From Luteitalea sp. (GTDB lineage Bacteria; Acidobacteriota; Vicinamibacteria; Vicinamibacterales; Vicinamibacteraceae), in assembly GCA_009377495.1 (NCBI GenBank), contig WHTZ01000016.1, positions 1 to 64,000 on the forward strand: a stretch of 64,000 nucleotides of DNA. The letters are read 5' to 3'. Position numbers and translations under genes: made by a program. Within the stretch, counting starts at the first letter, position 1; each line of letters starts with the position of its first letter. This document shows, in pieces, positions 23,062-35,548 of the stretch. Under the pieces are notes generated by a model. It saw only the letters and a program-made list of their open reading frames with translations, ran no database searches and was not told where the DNA came from.

Positions 23062-24156
23062 CTTCCGCAGTTGCTCTCCGCCGGGCGACCGGGGCGGCAC
23101 AGAACGCCGCCCTCTCTCTGCCATCTGTTGCCCTATCACTCGCGGCGGCAACGACTTCCACGAGGGCGGCGCTTTTCACTGCAGCTTCATGATTGCGCTC
23201 CGTTCCGACGAACAAGGGGACAGACGCAGGGACAATTGCGATCGGGCGTTTTGTCCCTTCCCTCGTCCCCCCGTGTACCCCTCATGTCGCGCGGTCGCAA
23301 CCAGGGAAGGAGATGGAGATACTGGTGCAGCAGCACCCAGTGCTCGAGCTACCCAGTCCCCGTGCGGAGAGAACCGGGGGAAGCGGCGGCGTCCACGACG
23401 GTCGGACGGGTGGCGGAGCCAGGTTCGGGTGCACCGCGCTTTCCGCAAACCCACAAGGAGAGTGCGGGTTGCGGCTGATCTCGCGGAGTCCGGGAGGGAA
23501 ATACTGCATCCGCGCCACTGTTCCTCTTACCGCTCCTCCGTCTGCGTGCAACGCTCATACGGATCGACAACGAGAGGGGCCAAAGCAGGGGCCGAGTGCG
23601 TACAAGCTCGTTGGCCCCCCTTTCGGCCCCAGATCCACGAGCCAGGGCTATGGATGTCCGATCCAGAGCTGGACCGGCTATTCCCGGTGTGGCCTCTCCC
23701 TGGTACAACCGCTGAGCATCAGTGAGACCTGGCGAAGCGCACAGGGTCACATCTCAGTTGGAATACACCCGAAGTTCTTGCAAGCCACATCTATCTTTCC
23801 CTGTCCGCTTCGGTCGCACACGTCGGCGCATCGGTGGATGGAGTCGCACTTTTGGGCAACACGAGCAAACTGGCGCACATGTATGCAAGCGGCACCGGCC
23901 GTGATGTCGATCACACCGGCTGTTATTTTGAGCAGCCGACTTCCGGCTAGTGGGCCTTCGGCGTGCCCGCCTACGGGTATTGCATCGAAGGTGCTGACGA
24001 TGGCATCGTCATCGAGAAGGCAGAGCTCGCCTGGACTCACCGCGAGTCTGGCGCCTTCTGCACAACAGTTCTTTCGGAGGCGGCGGAGGTCTGATGAGTG
24101 CCGATCGTTGCTCTGCCGCACACCGACGTAGTACGGTGAGGGCGCAGGAGGTAGCT

Positions 24157-25305
24157 GTGGCACGCGGAACGCAAGTACCGATCACACCGGACGTTCTCAG
24201 GTGGGCGATTTCAGAATCGGGGCACGGCCCCGAGGAACTCGCCAGCGCCGTGGGCGTGTCGCCGGATGTCCTCGACGCGTGGCAGGCGGGCGGCTCTCGC
24301 CCGAACCTTACCCAGGCTCGGCGGCTCGCCTCGAAGCTTCACCGGCCATTGGCGGCGTTGCTCCTGCCCAGCCCCCCCAAGGCGCGACCACTCGCTGTGG
24401 AATTTCGGCATCCTGCCAGCGCGCGGCGCGAACTGAACGCATCGGAGAGAAGGCATCTGCGGCGGGCCAGCCGGATTCAGGAGACGTTGTCCTGGATTGC
24501 TGGGGAGCTTGCGCTCGATGCACCCCAGACGCCGTCCGGATCGGTCTCGGACGATCCGGCGCCTCTCGCAGCCGAAACGAGGAGGCTGCTCGGCATCACG
24601 ACGACGCAGCAAGTCGAGTGGCGATCGTCGGCGATCGCATTCGATCATTGGCGAAGCGCGCTCGAAGACACCGGCCACGTAGTGCTGTTGTTCTCGATTG
24701 GCAAGGCATCGTGTCGAGGCTTCTCAGCATGGGATCCGCGCGCTCCGATCATCGCCGTGAACACGGCATGGAACGAGGAGGCACGGATCTACACCTTGTT
24801 CCACGAGTTCGGCCACTTGATCACCAGGACGAGCTCCGCGTGCGTCGAATCACTACGGACTAGCGAACACGGGGATCCCATTGAACGGTGGTGTGAGCGG
24901 TTCGCTGCTGATGTCCTGATGCCCGGGCACGACGTGGAAATGTTCCTGCGCCAGCAAGGCTGGACGCCGGCGAAGAGGATCACGAGTCTCGATGCCGCTG
25001 CCGCCATGGCGAGGCGATTCAAGGTGAGCCTCCGAGCCGCAGTGATCAGACTGGTAACGATCAAGGCGGCGACATGGGACCTCTACGATCAAATCCCTGT
25101 CGTGGCGGACAAGAAGCCTGACGCTGGAGGTGGGACCGGCCGGAGTCGGACCGAGATCAGGGAGGACCAGTTCGGCGACCGCGTGGCCTCGGTGTTGGTT
25201 GATGCAGTTGAGAAGGACGTCATCGGTCGTTCGCAGGCTGTCGATTTCCTGGACATCCCGGACAGCTCGTTCGACGATCTTGCGCGGGCGGCGCACGGTG
25301 CGTAG
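24157..25305 (+). CDS. Xre-type HTH fused to ImmA/IrrE metallopeptidase
   Basis: GTG 24157 was chosen over the upstream ATG at 24094 because AGGAGG lies 5 bp before it. The 382-aa protein has an N-terminal lambda-repressor-like HTH (PDVLRWAISESGHGPEELASAVGVSPDVLDAWQAG), a basic linker and a zinc peptidase domain with HEFGHLI (about residue 225) and the partner helix ERWCERFAADVLMP. Such COG2856 proteins act as antitoxin or repressor that can destroy itself or a partner under stress. The DUF4411 gene starts 3 bp after its stop, forming a toxin-antitoxin-like operon. It is cargo of the 20-26 kb element. Confidence 0.88.
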   Translation: MARGTQVPITPDVLRWAISESGHGPEELASAVGVSPDVLDAWQAGGSRPNLTQARRLASKLHRPLAALLLPSPPKARPLAVEFRHPASARRELNASERRHLRRASRIQETLSWIAGELALDAPQTPSGSVSDDPAPLAAETRRLLGITTTQQVEWRSSAIAFDHWRSALEDTGHVVLLFSIGKASCRGFSAWDPRAPIIAVNTAWNEEARIYTLFHEFGHLITRTSSACVESLRTSEHGDPIERWCERFAADVLMPGHDVEMFLRQQGWTPAKRITSLDAAAAMARRFKVSLRAAVIRLVTIKAATWDLYDQIPVVADKKPDAGGGTGRSRTEIREDQFGDRVASVLVDAVEKDVIGRSQAVDFLDIPDSSFDDLARAAHGA

Positions 25306-25308
25306 CGC

Positions 25309-25806
25309 GTGGTCGCTGGCGTTGTCTGGGTCGTGGATACGTCGTCGATTGTCGAGGTTCGCAGATCAGTCGAGAACACGAAGAAGCCCCACGTGTTCGA
25401 GAAGCTCACGGAGCTGGTGAGTCAGGGCCGGCTGGTATTCCCGCGCCAGGTGCTCGGCGAACTGGCGCGCGTGGCAGACCCCGTTGGTCCGGATCAGCAG
25501 TATCTGTGGGCGAAGCGGAATCAAGCCACGGCCTGCCAGAACGATCCATCGCTCGAAGCGGTGAAAGAGGTGCTTGCTGTCGTCCCCCGCGTCCTGGATC
25601 CGGACAAGGACACGGGCGCAGAGGAGGCGGATCCGTACGTGCTGGCGAAGACACAGGATCTGAGGCGGGACGGAACGGACGCTCGCGTCGTTACGGAGGA
25701 GAAGAACGACACGCCGAGGAAGATGTCGCTGAGAACGGCTGCTGGCCTGTTGGGCATTCCGTCCGTTCCCCTTCGCGCCTTCCTGGAATTCGAGGGAATC
25801 CTGTGA
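25309..25806 (+). CDS. DUF4411/PIN-like putative toxin
   Basis: The 165-aa protein starts VVWVVDTSSIVEVRRSV, a PIN-like first strand with an Asp. It contains conserved acidic residues in the middle (EEADPYVLAKTQDL) and ends VVTEEKNDTPRKMSLRTAAGLLGIP, characteristic of DUF4411. These proteins are predicted PIN-fold RNases paired with Xre-ImmA proteins, as here. The GTG start at 25309 lies just 3 bp after the previous stop. The full length is present, so unlike three other PIN genes in this window it is probably functional. Confidence 0.8.
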   Translation: MVAGVVWVVDTSSIVEVRRSVENTKKPHVFEKLTELVSQGRLVFPRQVLGELARVADPVGPDQQYLWAKRNQATACQNDPSLEAVKEVLAVVPRVLDPDKDTGAEEADPYVLAKTQDLRRDGTDARVVTEEKNDTPRKMSLRTAAGLLGIPSVPLRAFLEFEGIL

Positions 25807-28671: not shown

Positions 28672-28814
28672 GTCCGAGATGTGTATCTGAAGTTCGGGCA
28701 ACGGTCGCGCGGATTCAAGCGACAAGTGACTGCAGCGCAGACGGTTGGCTGCGGTTCACTCTCGCGCCGCCACCGCCAGCCAGTTGCGAATTCCGTCCCG
28801 AACACCCAGCCAGC
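28672..28814. repeat. Intergenic palindrome-plus-box element, copy 1
   Basis: A 28-bp imperfect palindrome of the form GTCCGA-N16-TCGGGC (28672-28699) is followed 76 bp later by the conserved box CCAGCCAGTTGCGAATTCCG and onwards (28776-28814). The same two parts with similar spacing recur at 35062-35205 and 38675-38824. The element lies 83 bp past the ADOP stop. The box translated on the minus strand reads LGTRDGIRNWL-like, similar in style to the recombinase att tails. Confidence 0.7.
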
Positions 28815-28906
28815 CCATCCGCAAGGCACACGCGTCCCTACTTTAATAGACGCACGTTCAAGTCGAAACCTGACTAGGGTAGGGGCTCGCCATCCGTAAG
28901 CGCTGT

Positions 28907-29399: not shown

Positions 29400-30218
29400 C
29401 TAGTCGTTACGCCAGTCAGATCGTCGGTACGCTCGTCTCTCGTCCCGTTCAACTATCGCCTCAAGAGGCTCTTCGTCTGTCCACCACAGGATCGACAACA
29501 CCAGGTCGTCGGTGACCCGGCGCGAATCCTCGTGGATGCTGTGCCGCTCGTCCGCGCCGCTGAACCACTCGTCGACGTACACGTCACCGGACCCAGCGTC
29601 CCCTTGCCCCTTCGCGAGGTCGTGAGCAAAGGTTTTTCTACCAGGCAAGCGGGGCCAGAGCGATTCGGGCACATCGGGGCCTCGACGGAACCATCTGATG
29701 CGCGTCGCGTCCGAGGCGACAACTGCGGCGGGAAACGATCCGAGCTGAATGAGACGGATCGCAGTCGATGTGAGGCTCGTGGTGAACACATCTGCCAGTT
29801 CTGAGGCAGTTGCGAGCGTCATCGACTTGCCCTCGCTGCGCGGCGAGAACATGAATCTCGGCATGAGCAGGTCCGCTGCGTAGTCGTTTGCCCGTGATTC
29901 CCTGTTCGTCCCGCCCGATTCGTCGAATGCTCGGTGAGGGTTACACAACAGAGCCACCTCGCCGGCATCTCGGAGCCAATGCGCGAGTTCATGAGCCGCA
30001 GAGAATCGCTCTCTGCCTCTGCTGCTACTGTGATTGACCGTGATGATCGCCCTCTCGTCCGCACCGACGATTCGAGCTTCCGAACCGGACAGAGTTCCGT
30101 ATGTGACGGTTGCGTCGCAATGCTGAGCGATCGCCTCGATATCGATCTCGCTTGGCTCGGTGATACCGAGCTCCTTGAGCAAGTCGACGGCGGACCGATA
30201 TCGAGCCGGTTGAGTCAT
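29400..30218 (-). CDS. ImmA/IrrE family metallopeptidase (CapP-like candidate)
   Basis: The 272-aa protein has the zinc motif FSAAHELAHWLRDAGE (about residue 75) and the conserved helix ESRANDYAADLLMPRFMF supplying a further ligand. These are followed by a helical part and an acidic C-terminal half (WTDEEPLEAIVERDE). The family cleaves repressor proteins after DNA damage or phage signals. In described CBASS systems CapP, an ImmA-like peptidase, cleaves the repressor CapH. Here it is the last gene of a three-gene operon, overlapping the 143-aa gene by 4 bp, and the operon is divergent from a CBASS locus. There is no HTH domain in the protein itself. The link to CBASS is inference from position. 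Confidence 0.85.
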   Translation of the reverse strand: MTQPARYRSAVDLLKELGITEPSEIDIEAIAQHCDATVTYGTLSGSEARIVGADERAIITVNHSSSRGRERFSAAHELAHWLRDAGEVALLCNPHRAFDESGGTNRESRANDYAADLLMPRFMFSPRSEGKSMTLATASELADVFTTSLTSTAIRLIQLGSFPAAVVASDATRIRWFRRGPDVPESLWPRLPGRKTFAHDLAKGQGDAGSGDVYVDEWFSGADERHSIHEDSRRVTDDLVLSILWWTDEEPLEAIVERDERRAYRRSDWRND

Positions 30219-30646
30219 TTCTCAGAGCCCGGCTTCTTGTCCAAAAGGCCTAGGGCCCCAAACTGCTGGAGCCAACTCTCGACATCTTCATCGGTGAGCT
30301 CCTTGAATTCTCGATGCTGCGCGATCAGCATCCGCCCTGCTTGCTGATGCTGCGCGATCACTGCGTCGAGCAGCGCTCGGCGCTCTTCTGGACTGGCCGG
30401 TAACTGAAACTGCTGTGCGCTGATCGTCGCCGTCCTCTCCTCGTGCTTCTTCCGAGCAGCCACGAGCGCCCGCTGCTGAAACGTCTTAAACGTGTTCGCC
30501 AGGAGCTGCCGCATCCGGTCGGCGTCGGCGTCCATGGACATCCCGCCCTCTCGGTACTCCTCTTCAAGCTCAGCATCGTCGGCTTGCAGGATGCTCTCGC
30601 TCATCTCCTCGTAGAAAGCCCGGAGCGCTTCGTCTTTCTTGCTCAT
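30215..30646 (-). CDS. Unknown 143-aa helical protein between sigma factor and ImmA peptidase
   Basis: I do not recognise the family. The protein is charged and mostly helical. It has an acidic N-terminus (SILQADDAELEEEYREGG), a middle with MDADADRMRQLLANTFKTFQ and Lys/Arg-rich RKKHEERTA, and a C-terminal part ELTDEDVESWLQQFGALGLL. It has no signal peptide or membrane helix and no evident HTH. It overlaps both neighbours by 4 bp (ATGA), so the three proteins are made in step. Size, charge and place suggest an anti-sigma factor or adaptor that the ImmA peptidase could cleave; this is inference only. Confidence 0.75.
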   Translation of the reverse strand: MSKKDEALRAFYEEMSESILQADDAELEEEYREGGMSMDADADRMRQLLANTFKTFQQRALVAARKKHEERTATISAQQFQLPASPEERRALLDAVIAQHQQAGRMLIAQHREFKELTDEDVESWLQQFGALGLLDKKPGSEK

Positions 30647-31236
30647 GACTGGCCCTCCAACAATCGCTTCACGGCCCGACGAATGCGCTTCACCGTCGTC
30701 TCGTACTCCCTCTGGGAGAGCCCCAGACTTTCGCGGATCTCGCTCGGGTCTTTGCCGTCTAGCCTGGCTTCGAGCACTAACGCCGCCTCTGGATCGTCCG
30801 CGAATCGTTCCTTGATCAGTTTCTCGAGATCCGCGCTGTCACCACCGGGCGGTGCCTCGAACTCTTCGAAGGGATCGGCCTCCGGATCCTCTCGATCGAC
30901 GATCGACTTCAGATCGTCAAAGGCGTCCTTCGCTGCCTTCGTCCGCATGTTGTACGTCTGACTACGAATCGCGCCGATGAGCGCTACGAAGAACGCCGCC
31001 TTGGTAGGGTACCAGGTGCGCGTCCCGTCGAGGATCGCGAGGAACGCGTCCGTTACCAGCTCGTCGGGATCACGTGCTTGTCGGCGCCGGCCGAGAGCTT
31101 GAAACCGCCATCGCGCGAAGCTGGCGAGACGCGCCAGCTCCGTCTTCGTCACGGCGAGATACGCCTCACGAATCTGATCTGGGGTCGCTGCGATCGCTTC
31201 CGGCTCGGGCGGCGACCTCCGTTTGGCGTTGCTCAT
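30643..31236 (-). CDS. RNA polymerase sigma factor-like protein (ECF-like)
   Basis: Start at ATG 31236 (MSNAKRRSPPEPE) gives 197 aa. A longer frame to 31341 would run through the upstream repeat unit. The segment RDPDELVTDAFLAILDGTRTWYPTKAAFFVALIGAIRSQTYN resembles sigma region 2. The C-terminal ALVLEARLDGKDPSEIRESLGLSQREYETTVKRIRRAVKRLLEG resembles the region 4 helix-turn-helix. The linker is acidic (DREDPEADPFEEFEAPPG). It is the first gene of the operon with the 143-aa protein and the ImmA peptidase, and it faces away from the CBASS operon. It probably directs transcription of its own operon or of the defence genes. Confidence 0.75.
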   Translation of the reverse strand: MSNAKRRSPPEPEAIAATPDQIREAYLAVTKTELARLASFARWRFQALGRRRQARDPDELVTDAFLAILDGTRTWYPTKAAFFVALIGAIRSQTYNMRTKAAKDAFDDLKSIVDREDPEADPFEEFEAPPGGDSADLEKLIKERFADDPEAALVLEARLDGKDPSEIRESLGLSQREYETTVKRIRRAVKRLLEGQS

Positions 31237-31291
31237 TCTGTTGCTTTCACCTCGCACCGCCTTCTTCTTGAGTGCCGTGGACACGGCGACA

Positions 31292-31474
31292 CCGGACATC
31301 TCGCGAAAAATCTCGATCCGCATGTCCGGCGCGGCGTCCACCCCGGCACTTAGTAGCTAGGGAGTACACCGGCACGCTCTCCCAGTGCTCCCAGGAACCT
31401 GGTGCCGGACAACGCGCCCAAAACTTTTTCGAGGGGCATGTCCGGCAACCGGCGGTTCTCAGCACTTAGTAGCT
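31292..31474. repeat. Two tandem about 70-bp units in the divergent sigma/CBASS intergenic region
   Basis: Each unit has an inverted pair CCGGACA...TGTCCGG (31292-31298/31323-31329; 31405-31411/31439-31445). Exactly 16 bp further on is the 13-bp direct repeat GCACTTAGTAGCT (31346-31358; 31462-31474). Between the arms the units share CGCG, an A-rich tract, TCGA and GCATG. The left unit is 56 bp upstream of the sigma-factor start. They may be operators for a regulator controlling both directions, or small structured RNAs. Confidence 0.7.
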
Positions 31475-31784
31475 GTGGGCGCATTCCGCGCCCCCGCGCT
31501 CAGGAGACGTCGAACCCGAGCTCGACGAGCCTCGATATCGGGGCATTCGCCGGCTCGAGTGTAAGCCACGAGCGACATCCGCATCGACAACAAGCCGTAT
31601 GTCGTTGAGAAGTCGGTAATTACGGCCCGCGATCTGCTGTGCTCGTCTAGAAGCCCATCCCGGGGCTTACGGGGCTCGCACTCGCGGTGCCAGGGGAGTG
31701 TTGGATCATGGATCAACGACTCACAATCTCTTTCTGCGCTAGCGTCGGCGGTGTGCGCTCGGTCGCGGGGGAACCGCAGGCGCG

Positions 31785-32984
31785 ATGACGACGCAGGGCG
31801 CTCGCCAAGTCGCGTCGATGGCGCCCGAACGCCCGACGAAGGTAAAGTCGCGGGACATCAGCCGCTCCGTCGAGGCGATGCTGTGGGGCAGGGCCGCGGG
31901 ACGATGTCAGTTCGACGGCTGCAATCGCCCACTCTGGAAGTCTCCGGTCACGCAGGAGCGCGTCAACCTCGCCGAGAAGGCGCACATCTACTCGTTCAGC
32001 GCCGACGGTCCGCGCGGCAATCGTGGTATCGACGCGAAGCGACTGAACGCGCTTGAGAACCTGATTCTCGTCTGCGACATCTGCCACAAGACGATCGACA
32101 AGAACTGGAACAGCGGCCGCTATACCGTTGCGCAGCTGCAGCAGTGGAAGGCTGCCCACGAGGGGCGCGTTGCCCGTGTCACCGGCATCGGGCCTGAGAA
32201 GAGCAGCCACATCCTTCTCTTTGGCTCGAACATCGGCGACCACCACGGGCCGCTCCACTACACCCAGGCGGTGGATGCCGTCTTCCCGCACTGGTATCCC
32301 GCAGAAGACCGCGCGATTGAACTCGGCGTACGGAACAGCGTGCTCTCGGAAGCCAAGAAGGCGTTGTTCTGGGACCCGGCGCACGAGAACCTGGAAACCG
32401 ACTACGAGCACGTCCGCCGGCGCATCAGGAGCGGCGAGATCAAGCACCTCTCTGTCTTTGCGCTAGCGGCGCAGCCGCTGCTCATCAGGCTCGGCGCGCT
32501 GCTCGGCGACATCGTGCGCGCCGATGTCTACCAGCTCCACCGCGAACCGGCTCCGTCGTGGAGATGGCCGGCGCAGGCACCTGCGGCACCTGAGGTCGAG
32601 ATCCGGCGGCCGTCGTCGACGAACGGGCCGCCCGCGCTCGTGCTTGCGTTCAGCGCACCGGTCACGGCCGATCGGATCACCTCGGTTCTCGATCCGAACG
32701 CCGCGATCTGGACGCTGACGGTGCCGTCTCCGCACAAGGAGATCGTGAAGTCGCCGGCGCAGCTTTCCGAGATGCGCGGGCTCTTCAGCCGAATGTTTGA
32801 CGAGATCAAGGCAGTGCACGGTCAGGACACGCTGCTCCATGTGTTCCCGGTCATGCCCGTGTCCCTTGCGGTCGAACTTGGGCGCGCGCGGTCGCCCAAA
32901 GCCGAAATGCCGTGGCGCATCTACGACCAGGTCGGTGCGCTCGGCGGGTTTGTGCCCGCGCTTGAGATCGATCCGAAGGAGTAA
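31785..32984 (+). CDS. cap5: CBASS effector: HNH nuclease-SAVED domain protein (Cap5-like)
   Basis: The 399-aa protein has an N-terminal HNH nuclease: GRCQFDGCNRPLW, NLAEKAHIYSFSADGPRGN and LILVCDICHKTID, with zinc-binding Cys and catalytic His. A C-terminal SAVED sensor domain follows, ending in LLHVFPVMPVSLAVELGRAR and AEMPWRIYDQVGALGGFVPALEI. Cap5 proteins bind a cyclic dinucleotide made by the partner CD-NTase and then degrade DNA, killing the infected cell. It is the first gene of the CBASS operon, 5 bp before the CD-NTase. ATG 31785 is taken as start; ATG 31818 is also possible because no clear ribosome-binding site precedes either. Confidence 0.9.
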   Translation: MTTQGARQVASMAPERPTKVKSRDISRSVEAMLWGRAAGRCQFDGCNRPLWKSPVTQERVNLAEKAHIYSFSADGPRGNRGIDAKRLNALENLILVCDICHKTIDKNWNSGRYTVAQLQQWKAAHEGRVARVTGIGPEKSSHILLFGSNIGDHHGPLHYTQAVDAVFPHWYPAEDRAIELGVRNSVLSEAKKALFWDPAHENLETDYEHVRRRIRSGEIKHLSVFALAAQPLLIRLGALLGDIVRADVYQLHREPAPSWRWPAQAPAAPEVEIRRPSSTNGPPALVLAFSAPVTADRITSVLDPNAAIWTLTVPSPHKEIVKSPAQLSEMRGLFSRMFDEIKAVHGQDTLLHVFPVMPVSLAVELGRARSPKAEMPWRIYDQVGALGGFVPALEIDPKE

Positions 32985-32989
32985 CGACT

Positions 32990-34168
32990 ATGCTGACTGA
33001 CACCGGAATCGGCCGACAGTTCTTCGAGCTGCTCGTCGAGAGCCTCGACATCCCACCATCACTCTACGAGCGCGCAGTGAGCCGCCACCGTTCGCTCGGC
33101 GAATGGCTGTGCCGCGACGGTTCGCGCCTTCGCGAGTTCAGTCCCCACGTGTCACCGCAGGGCTCGTTCCGGCTCGGCACCGTCGTCAGGCCGCTCGCCG
33201 CGGACGCGGTCTACGACCTCGACAACGTCACGACCCTGATGCTGTCCAAAGCGACGATCACGCAAAAGCGCCTCAAGGAGCTCTACGGGCTGGAGATCCA
33301 GGACTACGCGACCGCGCACGGCATGCTCGCACCGCCGGAGGAGAAGAAGCGGTGCTGGCGGCTGCCGTACGCCGACGAGGTGAACTTCCATCTCGATTCG
33401 TTGCCGTCGCTGGCGGAGGAGGAGAGCTTCGTCCGCACACTGCGCATGCGCGATGTCCCTGAGGAGTGGGCCAGGCGCGCCATCGCGATCACGGACAAGC
33501 GGCATCCGGCCTACGCGAAGTCGACGACGCTCTGGCTGACGAGCAACCCGCGCGGCTTCGCCCGGTGGCTCGAGTCACGGATGGGCACCTTCGCGGACGT
33601 GCGGCGGCGCGAGCTGGTTCAGCGCCGGCTGTACGCCGCAGTCGAAGACGTTCCGACCTATGAATTGAAGACGCCGCTGCAGCGCGCCATCCAGTTGCTG
33701 AAGCGCCACCGCGACGTGATGTTCGTGGACAACCCGGACGTGGCGCCGCTCTCTATGGTTCTGACGAACCTCGCCGGGCACGCGTATGACGGCGAAGCGG
33801 ATGTTTACGACGCCGTGCGCGGCATTCTGGCACGAATGCTGAGGTACCTGCGTGCGGAGCGGCCCCGCGTTCCCAACCCGACGCATCCGGATGAAGACTA
33901 CGCCGACAAGTGGTCGAAGGACCCACGGCTCGAGCTGAGTTTCCTGCAGTGGCACAGCCAGGCGTCCCGGGATTTCGAGACATTGCCGGCGTTGAGGGAC
34001 CCGGTCGCGCTCAGGGCCGCGACGAAGCGCTCGTTCCAGGTTGACCTGCGGGACGATCATCTCAGGAGCCTGGGGCTCGCATCGGCCGCGCCGGCCATCA
34101 TCGTCACGTCTCCGGCACCGAGGGTTCAGATCTCCTCGCCGTCGCGCCCGTGGGGAAGCCTTGACTGA
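32990..34168 (+). CDS. CD-NTase (cGAS/DncV-like nucleotidyltransferase) of CBASS
   Basis: This 392-aa protein has the catalytic signature SPQGSFRLGTVVRPL (Gly58-Ser59) with YDLDNV (Asp76, Asp78). A third acidic residue is in EVNFHLDSLPS (about Asp136). The helical C-terminal half includes LQRAIQLLKRHRDVMF, typical of the nucleotidyltransferase fold. It should make a cyclic oligonucleotide on phage infection that activates the HNH-SAVED effector. Pairing with Cap5 and an E2 fits the CdnG-type short type II systems; the exact clade and product are inference. The C-terminus (APRVQISSPSRPWGSLD) is a flexible tail of the sort conjugated by E2-type ancillary enzymes. The E2 gene overlaps it by 8 bp. 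Confidence 0.92.
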   Translation: MLTDTGIGRQFFELLVESLDIPPSLYERAVSRHRSLGEWLCRDGSRLREFSPHVSPQGSFRLGTVVRPLAADAVYDLDNVTTLMLSKATITQKRLKELYGLEIQDYATAHGMLAPPEEKKRCWRLPYADEVNFHLDSLPSLAEEESFVRTLRMRDVPEEWARRAIAITDKRHPAYAKSTTLWLTSNPRGFARWLESRMGTFADVRRRELVQRRLYAAVEDVPTYELKTPLQRAIQLLKRHRDVMFVDNPDVAPLSMVLTNLAGHAYDGEADVYDAVRGILARMLRYLRAERPRVPNPTHPDEDYADKWSKDPRLELSFLQWHSQASRDFETLPALRDPVALRAATKRSFQVDLRDDHLRSLGLASAAPAIIVTSPAPRVQISSPSRPWGSLD

Positions 34169-34979
34169 GACTGTCGCGGAGCGATTTCGCAAGAGCGAGA
34201 TCGCGGCGCTCCTTGTGCGCTATCCCGGATTGCGGTTGGTTCCGTCCGGGTCGATGGCTTTGCGCGTTGAGGGAACGTTGAGGTTCTGTGCGAACGGCAA
34301 AAAGACCGAGGTCATCGAGGATGGCTTTGACGTTCGCATAGAGGCTCCGGAGAATTTTCAGGAGCGAATGGCGCTGGCGTGGGAGACGGGCGGGCGCATA
34401 CCGCGCGACTACCACAAGCTGAGGAACGGCGCGCTTTGCCTCGGATCACGCGTGGGGCTGCGGCTGCAGATGGGCGGGTCACCGTCGCTTCTTCGCTTCG
34501 TCGAGCGCTGCGTGATCCCGTACCTCTAGGGCTATTCGTATTCGGTGAAGCACGGCGCGCCGCCCTTCGGAGAACTGGCACACGGCGAGCTCGGCTCGCT
34601 CCAGGATCTGGCCGGTCTGCTCGGCGTCGACGACTTGGACCTTGCCTTCCGCTATTGCACGCTGGCCGCCACGAAGAGACGACGCGCGAATAAGCAACCG
34701 TGTCCATGTGGCAGCGGCCGACGGCTAGGCCGTTGTCACAGTCGAAGAATCAACGCCCTACGTAAACGCGTCGGCCGTGCGGTTGTTGCCTCTGAGATGA
34801 GAACGATTGTGCTGGCTTTCCGCGAGCAGTCGCGCCGCAAGCGCATCGCGACCGCGCGAGAGGAAGCCGCCGCGACTAGACCCAGCCTCCTCGAGGTCAT
34901 TCGGGAGATGCGCAGACCAGCCGCTCTTCCGCTATGGGTCCGCCCCGATGGCCACGTTCTCCTACAGGGACCTGCCTAG
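34161..34979 (+). pseudogene. E2-like CBASS ancillary protein with SEC-C tail, split by an in-frame TAG
   Basis: TTG 34161, overlapping the CD-NTase end by 8 bp, starts a frame with the E2 signature RIPRDYHKLRNGALCLGS (His85, candidate catalytic Cys93) and continues FVERCVIPYL to a TAG at 34527-34529. The same frame then goes on without shift as GYSYSVKHGAPPFGELAHGE to a C-terminal SEC-C zinc motif CPCGSGRRLGRCH and a basic helix, stopping at 34979. From my memory of related proteins Tyr is usual where the TAG lies, so one substitution (TAC/TAT to TAG) explains it. Full length would be 271 residues apart from the amber position. E2-only proteins mark type II-short (II-C) CBASS. The 122-aa product ends after the catalytic region but lacks the rest. 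Confidence 0.75.
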
Positions 34980-35061: not shown

Positions 35062-35205
35062 GTCCGAAGTATGTCTACATATTTCGGACGACTGATCGGA
35101 AGCCCTACGCCTGAATCTAAAGCCCGCTCAATCAGTTGTGACGGATGCTCGATCACGCCGCGGAGACCAGCCAGTTGCGAATTCCGTCCCTAACACCCAG
35201 CCAGC
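35062..35205. repeat. Intergenic palindrome-plus-box element, copy 2
   Basis: The 28-bp palindrome here (35062-35089; GTCCGAAGTATG and CATATTTCGGAC) is the best preserved of the four. The box starting CCAGCCAGTTGCGAATTCCG lies at 35167-35205, 77 bp downstream. It follows the E2/SEC-C gene. Confidence 0.7.
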
Positions 35206-35548
35206 TCAGTCGTATGCCCCCTCTCTACATCTGCTAGAACGCAGATTAGGCGCGGAACCTTACAGCAACGTCTCGATCAACACGGTCGACGCGGTCGGCT
35301 TGCGGGCGCCGGCTCGCCCTGGGTCTTGCCGGCGGCGTCTCGCTCACAACTGCGAAAGGCCACCGTCCACGACAAGCTCCTCGCCTTGCCGTGAAGCTCG
35401 AACATCCTGTGACTTGGCTAGTCCCGGCTTAGGCCGGGCTTAGGCCTCCCACGCGGGACCAATGGCACATGACGCATGATTGTCCCCTCACCCATTGATG
35501 GCAGTTGACGGAGCGTCGCCCTCGACGATATAGTCCCATCAAGAGCTG
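35206..35548. other. Intergenic region before the PadR-ADOP pair
   Basis: No gene was recognised. A duplicated GGCTTAGGCC/CGGGCTTAGGCC motif lies at about 35425-35450, and the DNA just upstream of the PadR start (GACGATATAGTCCCATCAAGAGCTGATGGGAC, in part) contains the inverted pair GTCCCATCA/TGATGGGAC (35531-35539/35546-35554). This is a possible PadR operator overlapping the start codon. Confidence 0.55.

Follow-up and report, generated by a model that had tools for sequence, protein, structure and literature searches.

Three minus-strand genes and a divergent operon of the CBASS type were delimited in the 64-kb stretch of DNA that was analysed as a whole (the window). Gene 1 (30643-31236) encodes an ECF-like sigma factor of 197 aa, counted from the ATG at 31236; a GTG start at 31341 would give a longer gene. 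Gene 2 (30215-30646) encodes an orphan protein of 143 aa, herein called X, which is the conserved partner between the sigma and CapP genes. Gene 3 (29400-30218) encodes a CapP-type ImmA/IrrE metallopeptidase of 272 aa. The sigma/X and X/CapP junctions are each formed by a 4-bp ATGA overlap, and 548 bp separate the sigma ATG from the start of the divergent gene at 31785. The initial annotation had described three minus-strand genes coupled by two 4-bp overlaps and separated by about 550 bp from an HNH-SAVED/CD-NTase operon; the ORF coordinates proved exact, and the measured distance agrees.

Gene 1 is classified as a divergent ECF-like sigma factor in which regions 2 and 4 are present. The protein passes the Pfam Sigma70_ECF cut-off of 21.1 bits only barely (22.5 bits, E = 1.2e-4); the profile of 26 relatives matches the ECF factor SigH in RNA polymerase complexes over regions 2 and 4 (6jcy, E = 6e-7), and Sigma70_r2 was matched individually by 10 of the 26 family members. 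NCBI annotates the gene as a sigma-70 family sigma factor in several cassettes. The structure models were based on alignments of 4-5 rows and are weak, that of gene 1 being moderate; its Foldseek matches were mostly to sigma factors, and no single match fell below 0.001. Gene 3 is assigned to the CapP family on the basis of its matches to Pfam Peptidase_M78 (1e-13) and, over the full length, to PADLOC capP (1e-53, residues 10-246 of 272 on positions 9-241 of 242). The best PDB match of the peptidase profile was CapP 7t5t (9e-23). Both the HExxH motif and C92, which is located after the HExxH helix, are invariant in the 24 peptidase relatives, and C92 has a Cys counterpart in CapP 7t5t but none in IrrE 3dte.

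Protein X gave no significant match in Pfam, NCBIfam or PDB when the window protein and the profile were searched. A recognisable anti-sigma domain was absent among the known families considered (zinc-binding, RseA, FecR, NepR-like and others); a CapH-type HTH was likewise absent from gene 1, and X reached only E = 0.26 against PADLOC capH. The X family is small and acidic (median pI 4.9), and the model of X is all-helical with low confidence (pLDDT 62, pTM 0.28). The sole invariant residue across 27 X sequences is R112, which belongs to a C-terminal LTxAAR-type motif and is positioned at a helix break predicted in this low-confidence model. The C-terminal AARxG of X was also considered as a shared recognition tag for CapP; proteins encoded upstream of viral ImmA genes gave one convincing case, against a background of 2%. 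This single case apart from X is an HTH protein of locus L095 (4545-5000) ending in LLAARNSG, and its plasmid relatives gave no support. The L095 protein, with the terminal sequence LLAARNSGDAITQKD, is encoded immediately before an ImmA gene, and its tail resembles the LTxAAR of X; a peptidase recognition motif common to both proteins is possible.

The divergent operon is located on the plus strand. The first gene (31785-32984) encodes a Cap4-like effector with HNH fused to SAVED (PADLOC 1e-134, Pfam SAVED 3e-44, HNH_2 2e-4), and it is followed by a CD-NTase, i.e., an oligonucleotide cyclase (32990-34168; PADLOC Cyclase about 1e-113 [7e-113], Pfam DncV-like 3e-8), and by an E2-like CBASS gene with an approximate start (34165-34979), both halves of which match PADLOC E2 (6e-24 and 2e-21). 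The occurrence of the CD-NTase and the HNH-SAVED effector in one operon identifies the system as CBASS. The intact E2 needed for CBASS with an ancillary E2 (short type II) is not present in the window, because an in-frame TAG at 34527-34529 splits the gene; the E2-like gene may be decaying or broken, or the TAG may stem from an error in the assembled base.

The gap between the cassette and CBASS contains the decayed 5′ part of a multiubiquitin (Bub-type) gene on the plus strand (31512-31638), which was recognised by blastn (E = 2e-23) through a gene of locus L008. The L008 gene occupies the same position beside a closely related cassette and matches Pfam Multi_ubiq (3e-16). ORFs of 65-85 aa in the gap were considered, and the multiubiquitin remnant was the only meaningful reading. 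Since this remnant sits between the promoter-like sites described below and CBASS, the window cassette probably once faced a ubiquitin-like operon, and the immune operon was later exchanged.

Other features were observed in the surroundings of the cassette. An HTH-ImmA fusion (24094-25305) followed by a DUF4411 PIN-like gene (25309-25806) is located 5 kb away, and the two genes are a probable toxin-antitoxin or regulator pair. A direct repeat with an identical 22-nt core is found at 28762-28817, at 35153-35208 and at approximately 38790; these are the only three copies in the genome, all within the window. Two copies flank 6.4 kb comprising a HupE-like gene fragment, the cassette and CBASS, and two copies directly follow permease genes of the MacB/ADOP kind. 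The repeats are possible boundaries of an acquired block.

Distribution and neighbours of the sigma-X-CapP cassette

Thirty-seven non-redundant loci, distributed over Acidobacteriota, Proteobacteria and Bacteroidota, have the sigma-X-CapP order; the chromosomes surveyed were those of Acidobacteriota, and the proteobacterial and Bacteroidota cassettes come from plasmids and viral-collection contigs. The 4-bp overlap was kept at the sigma/X junction in 24 and at the X/CapP junction in 14 of the 33 cassettes measured. Conservation of the order in 37 loci of three phyla, together with the retained overlaps, argues that the cassette is not a chance arrangement. The capP family search of 396 Acidobacteriota genomes yielded 20 matches with E < 1e-39, including 13 sigma-X-CapP cassettes, two probable cassettes (L080, cut by a contig end, and L089, without a clear sigma gene) and five ordinary HTH-CapP pairs. 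X was present in 5 of 296 other Acidobacteriota genomes, all five of which have sigma, X and CapP in order. Plasmids of Alpha-, Beta- and Gammaproteobacteria and Bacteroidota provided 22 non-redundant cassettes, and viral-collection contigs provided two further cassettes. The viral-contig scan with the sigma protein gave no match, and no cassette-like CapP was found in phage records. In contrast to these loci, plasmid locus L042 carries an ordinary CapH-like HTH gene and adjoins a ThiF-type operon.

In a tree of 48 peptidases, 30 sigma-linked sequences from Acidobacteriota and Proteobacteria formed one group (100/100) apart from the CapH-linked peptidases, and sigma linkage overall requires at least two changes. 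More distant CapP loci were observed at L091 (944-2947) and L089 (7758-8991), where another small protein (113 and 124 aa, respectively) with an ARAARLGGEI motif near its end precedes the peptidase; a 271-aa sigma-like gene comes before it in L091. These two loci may represent a second, divergent branch of the sigma type.

The count of neighbouring genes proposed in the initial annotation was conducted for all 37 cassettes. Twenty-five are divergent from defence operons (8 CBASS and 17 ubiquitin-like operons of the Bil/Bub type), and a location mostly in unrelated contexts did not occur. CBASS is faced in the window, in L010 (HNH-SAVED), L079 (CD-NTase, HORMA, TRIP13 and NucC) and L082 (CD-NTase, E2 and phospholipase), in the plasmid cassette of Cereibacter sphaeroides 2.4.1 (L024), and in Pseudoalteromonas (L030), Bradyrhizobium (L037) and Roseivivax (L041). 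Ubiquitin-like operons are faced in L007 (UBL, E2, JAB and a BilD-like E1), L008, L009, L085, L086 (assigned by reading its translation), L087, L091, L029, L031, L032, L034, L036, L039, L040, L045, L046 and L094. With 17 ubiquitin-like operons versus 8 CBASS operons, the cassette appears to serve immune operons generally, and CBASS is a minority partner. The control had originally been regarded as a feature of CBASS; this part of the interpretation was not retained, given that ubiquitin-like operons are commoner and that the window itself keeps the start of a decayed multiubiquitin gene.

No nameable defence operon was located next to the other 12 cassettes, which adjoin unknown small genes, a Beta-protein gene (L026), insertion sequences or nothing nameable. 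In several plasmid cassettes, namely L024 (5573-5851), L025 (5532-5810), L035 (4562-4840) and L038 (4564-4842), a gene of approximately 92 aa comes first in the divergent position, and in some cases a DUF2188 gene accompanies it; Pfam gave no match for the L024 copy. The small gene may be a defence gene that has escaped recognition and is controlled by the same promoter.

Promoter-like sites upstream of the sigma gene

The motif TGTCCG-N17-GCACT occurs four times in the window, with 0.10 copies expected, and all four copies fall within the 548-bp gap, two per strand. On the minus strand, the copies at 31271-31298, about 34 nt from the sigma ATG, and at 31384-31411 face the sigma cassette; on the plus strand, those at 31323-31350 and 31439-31466, in the form TGTCCG-N17-GCACT(TA), face the CBASS operon. 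The whole Acidobacteriota genome (6.5 Mb) holds six copies, four of them in this gap, and the longer GCACTTA form is found only here. A sigma-70-type (housekeeping) promoter was looked for in the gap, and none was found. The first CBASS codon is located about 320 nt downstream of the nearer plus-strand site, behind the gene remnant; the unusually long leader before the start codon is explained by the intervening multiubiquitin sequence.

Similar sites were found among the relatives. Upstream of their sigma genes, CGGACA and TGTCCG arms are followed by outward-facing GCATAG-like hexamers, and many loci have paired back-to-back sites of the TGTCCG-N17/18-GCAT type with spacing matched within the locus. 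Across 34 loci, TGTCCG-N17/18-GCA occurred 28 times in 12.5 kb upstream of the sigma gene versus 10 times in 507 kb of surroundings, a 114-fold higher density for which a formal p-value overstates the case, because these very sequences had first drawn attention to the motif and closely related loci are among them. Its concentration in a single gap of the window and the genome is nevertheless striking in itself. The exact motif was absent in several cassettes, mostly of distant branches (e.g., L031, L032, L082, L085 and L088). Where a plasmid locus has a strong site, the second half is in most cases located 13-41 nt from the start codon of the sigma gene. In 29 of 30 cases, 17 or 18 nt separate the half-sites; within a locus this spacing is nearly always equal in both directions, with the second-half variant usually identical too. 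The distance from one TGTCCG arm to the other, in contrast, ranges between 6 and 27 nt among loci. Fixed spacing of the half-sites combined with a variable gap between the arms points to two back-to-back promoters, as expected if one sigma factor read both, rather than to a dimer operator.

Gene 1 is very probably a working sigma factor for TGTCCG-type sites. Activation of both its own cassette and the divergent operon through these predicted promoters is well supported at the level of sequence. The earlier idea of a CapP-type controller in which a sigma factor stands in for CapH and exerts positive control over the divergent defence operon is supported by the conservation of the cassette, the defence neighbours of 25 of 37 loci and the paired sites facing both operons.

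Proposed mechanism and alternative explanations

We consider it reasonably likely that the cassette is a portable sigma-X-CapP controller of immune operons, in which the sigma factor is released upon the destruction of X. The sigma factor would read the back-to-back TGTCCG-N17/18-GCAT/GCACT promoters and drive its own operon together with the divergent defence operon (CBASS in the window), thereby creating a positive feedback loop. X, which would be produced in coupled amounts through the overlapping frame, would bind the sigma factor and hold it off. The CapP-type peptidase, probably activated by ssDNA during phage replication or DNA damage, would cut X, perhaps at the loop with the invariant R112, and would thereby free the sigma factor. 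Replacement of CapH by a sigma/anti-sigma pair would make the switch one of activation instead of derepression.

The individual steps of this model differ in strength. X is probably the anti-sigma factor of gene 1, as suggested by its position after the sigma gene, the overlapping frames and its nature as a small acidic helical protein. Cleavage of X by CapP is likewise probable by analogy, since related peptidases cut their partners CapH and DdrO. The cut in DdrO falls within a C-terminal-domain loop with an arginine that, in a model, touches ssDNA; this precedent, the invariance of R112 and its position at a predicted helix break make the surrounding loop a candidate cut site in X, as a first guess. 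ssDNA activates CapP and PprI (PMC13373217, PMC10904395), and by analogy ssDNA or DNA damage is a moderately likely trigger of the cassette.

Three other explanations of the cassette were weighed. The sigma-like protein could be a sigma-derived DNA-binding repressor or co-repressor that substitutes for CapH and is removed by CapP, which would result in derepression. CapP relatives do cut DNA-binding repressors, the sigma domains of gene 1 are divergent, and the inverted repeat made up of the TGTCCG arms could resemble an operator. However, a repressor reading is at odds with half-sites conserved at a fixed 17-18 nt while the spacer of the repeat varies between 6 and 27 nt, with matches of the gene 1 profile to ECF factors in region 2 as well as in region 4, and with a gap in which no housekeeping promoter was seen; it also leaves gene X without a role, and we regard it as unlikely. 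X could instead be a cofactor or sensor of CapP, and the peptidase would then degrade the sigma factor itself and shut the system off after activation. This assignment accords with the position of X directly before capP, which it overlaps in many loci, and with the lack of any anti-sigma domain found in X. CapH and DdrO, the analogous partners whose genes adjoin those of such peptidases or are linked to them, are nevertheless substrates, an anti-sigma gene usually follows its sigma gene, and a free self-activating sigma factor without a brake is unlikely, so that little probability is given to a cofactor role.

The cassette as a whole might also be a selfish or toxin-antitoxin-like unit that regulates only itself and is found in defence islands by chance. 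The 12 of 37 loci without an adjoining named defence operon, the many loci on plasmids and the unknown nature of the divergent small genes in several plasmids are compatible with such a unit. It appears highly improbable when set against the CBASS or ubiquitin-like operons that are divergent in 25 of the 37 loci, and against the promoter-like sites that also face those operons. The release of a sigma factor from X by CapP is preferred over all three.

Comparison with known systems

CapH-CapP (Lau et al. 2022) is composed of an HTH repressor and an ssDNA-activated metallopeptidase, and it controls CBASS, Bub and other immune operons, as outlined in PMC13373217. The cassette shares with it a CapP-family peptidase and a module placed divergent from the same kinds of immune operon. 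Unlike CapH-CapP, an ECF-like sigma factor and the orphan X replace the HTH protein CapH, a new conserved bipartite site is present, control would be activation, and most sigma-linked peptidases form the clade of 30 described above. Lacking the HTH repressor that defines CapH-CapP, the cassette does not qualify as such a system. Some Bub operons published with 'CapH+CapP' might be of the sigma-X-CapP type.

CapK-CapS and CapW/BrxR are further control genes of immune operons (PMC13373217, PMC9122588). They resemble the cassette as DNA-damage-linked control genes that adjoin CBASS and Bub operons, but CapK-CapS is a kinase with a STAS repressor and CapW/BrxR is a WYL repressor, and both are without a sigma factor or peptidase. 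To our knowledge, the DNA-damage controllers of CBASS and related operons (CapW, CapH-CapP and CapK-CapS) all lift a repressor. A full-text literature search that did not extend to key papers of the group which defined CapP and Bub returned no paper on sigma-factor/ImmA control of immune operons; control of this kind is likely, although not certainly, new to the literature. By a slight lean of the evidence, we favour an undescribed and widespread controller family in which a DNA-damage-activated CapP-type peptidase would destroy an anti-sigma factor by cutting its LTxAAR loop, free a self-amplifying sigma factor, and move among CBASS, Bil and Bub operons with its own promoters.

The release of sigma factors by proteolysis is familiar from CRISPR. 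In type III-E CRISPR, RpoE-Csx30 with the Csx29 protease constitutes a defence in which a sigma factor is released by proteolysis; unlike in the cassette, however, the protease and inhibitor are unrelated, and the NCBIfam III-E sigma model reached only E = 0.17 against the cassette. In the CalpL-CalpT-CalpS system of type III CRISPR, the protease cuts the anti-sigma factor CalpT and frees the ECF sigma factor CalpS (PMC11417357, PMC11229360). The proposed three-part logic is common to both systems, namely, a sigma factor, a small inhibitor and a protease that destroys the inhibitor upon infection. CalpL is a SAVED-Lon protease of CRISPR activated by cyclic tetra-adenylate, whereas the cassette has an M78 CapP-type zinc peptidase, its trigger is by analogy probably ssDNA, and its proposed output is the immune operon itself.

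If correct, this model would provide the first activating, self-amplifying switch for these immune operons, and the promoter motif would predict membership of the regulon. Control modules would be swapped between unrelated immune operons, as illustrated by the multiubiquitin remnant of the window, and the CapP family would be joined to a sigma-release logic so far known from CRISPR, as in CalpL/T/S.
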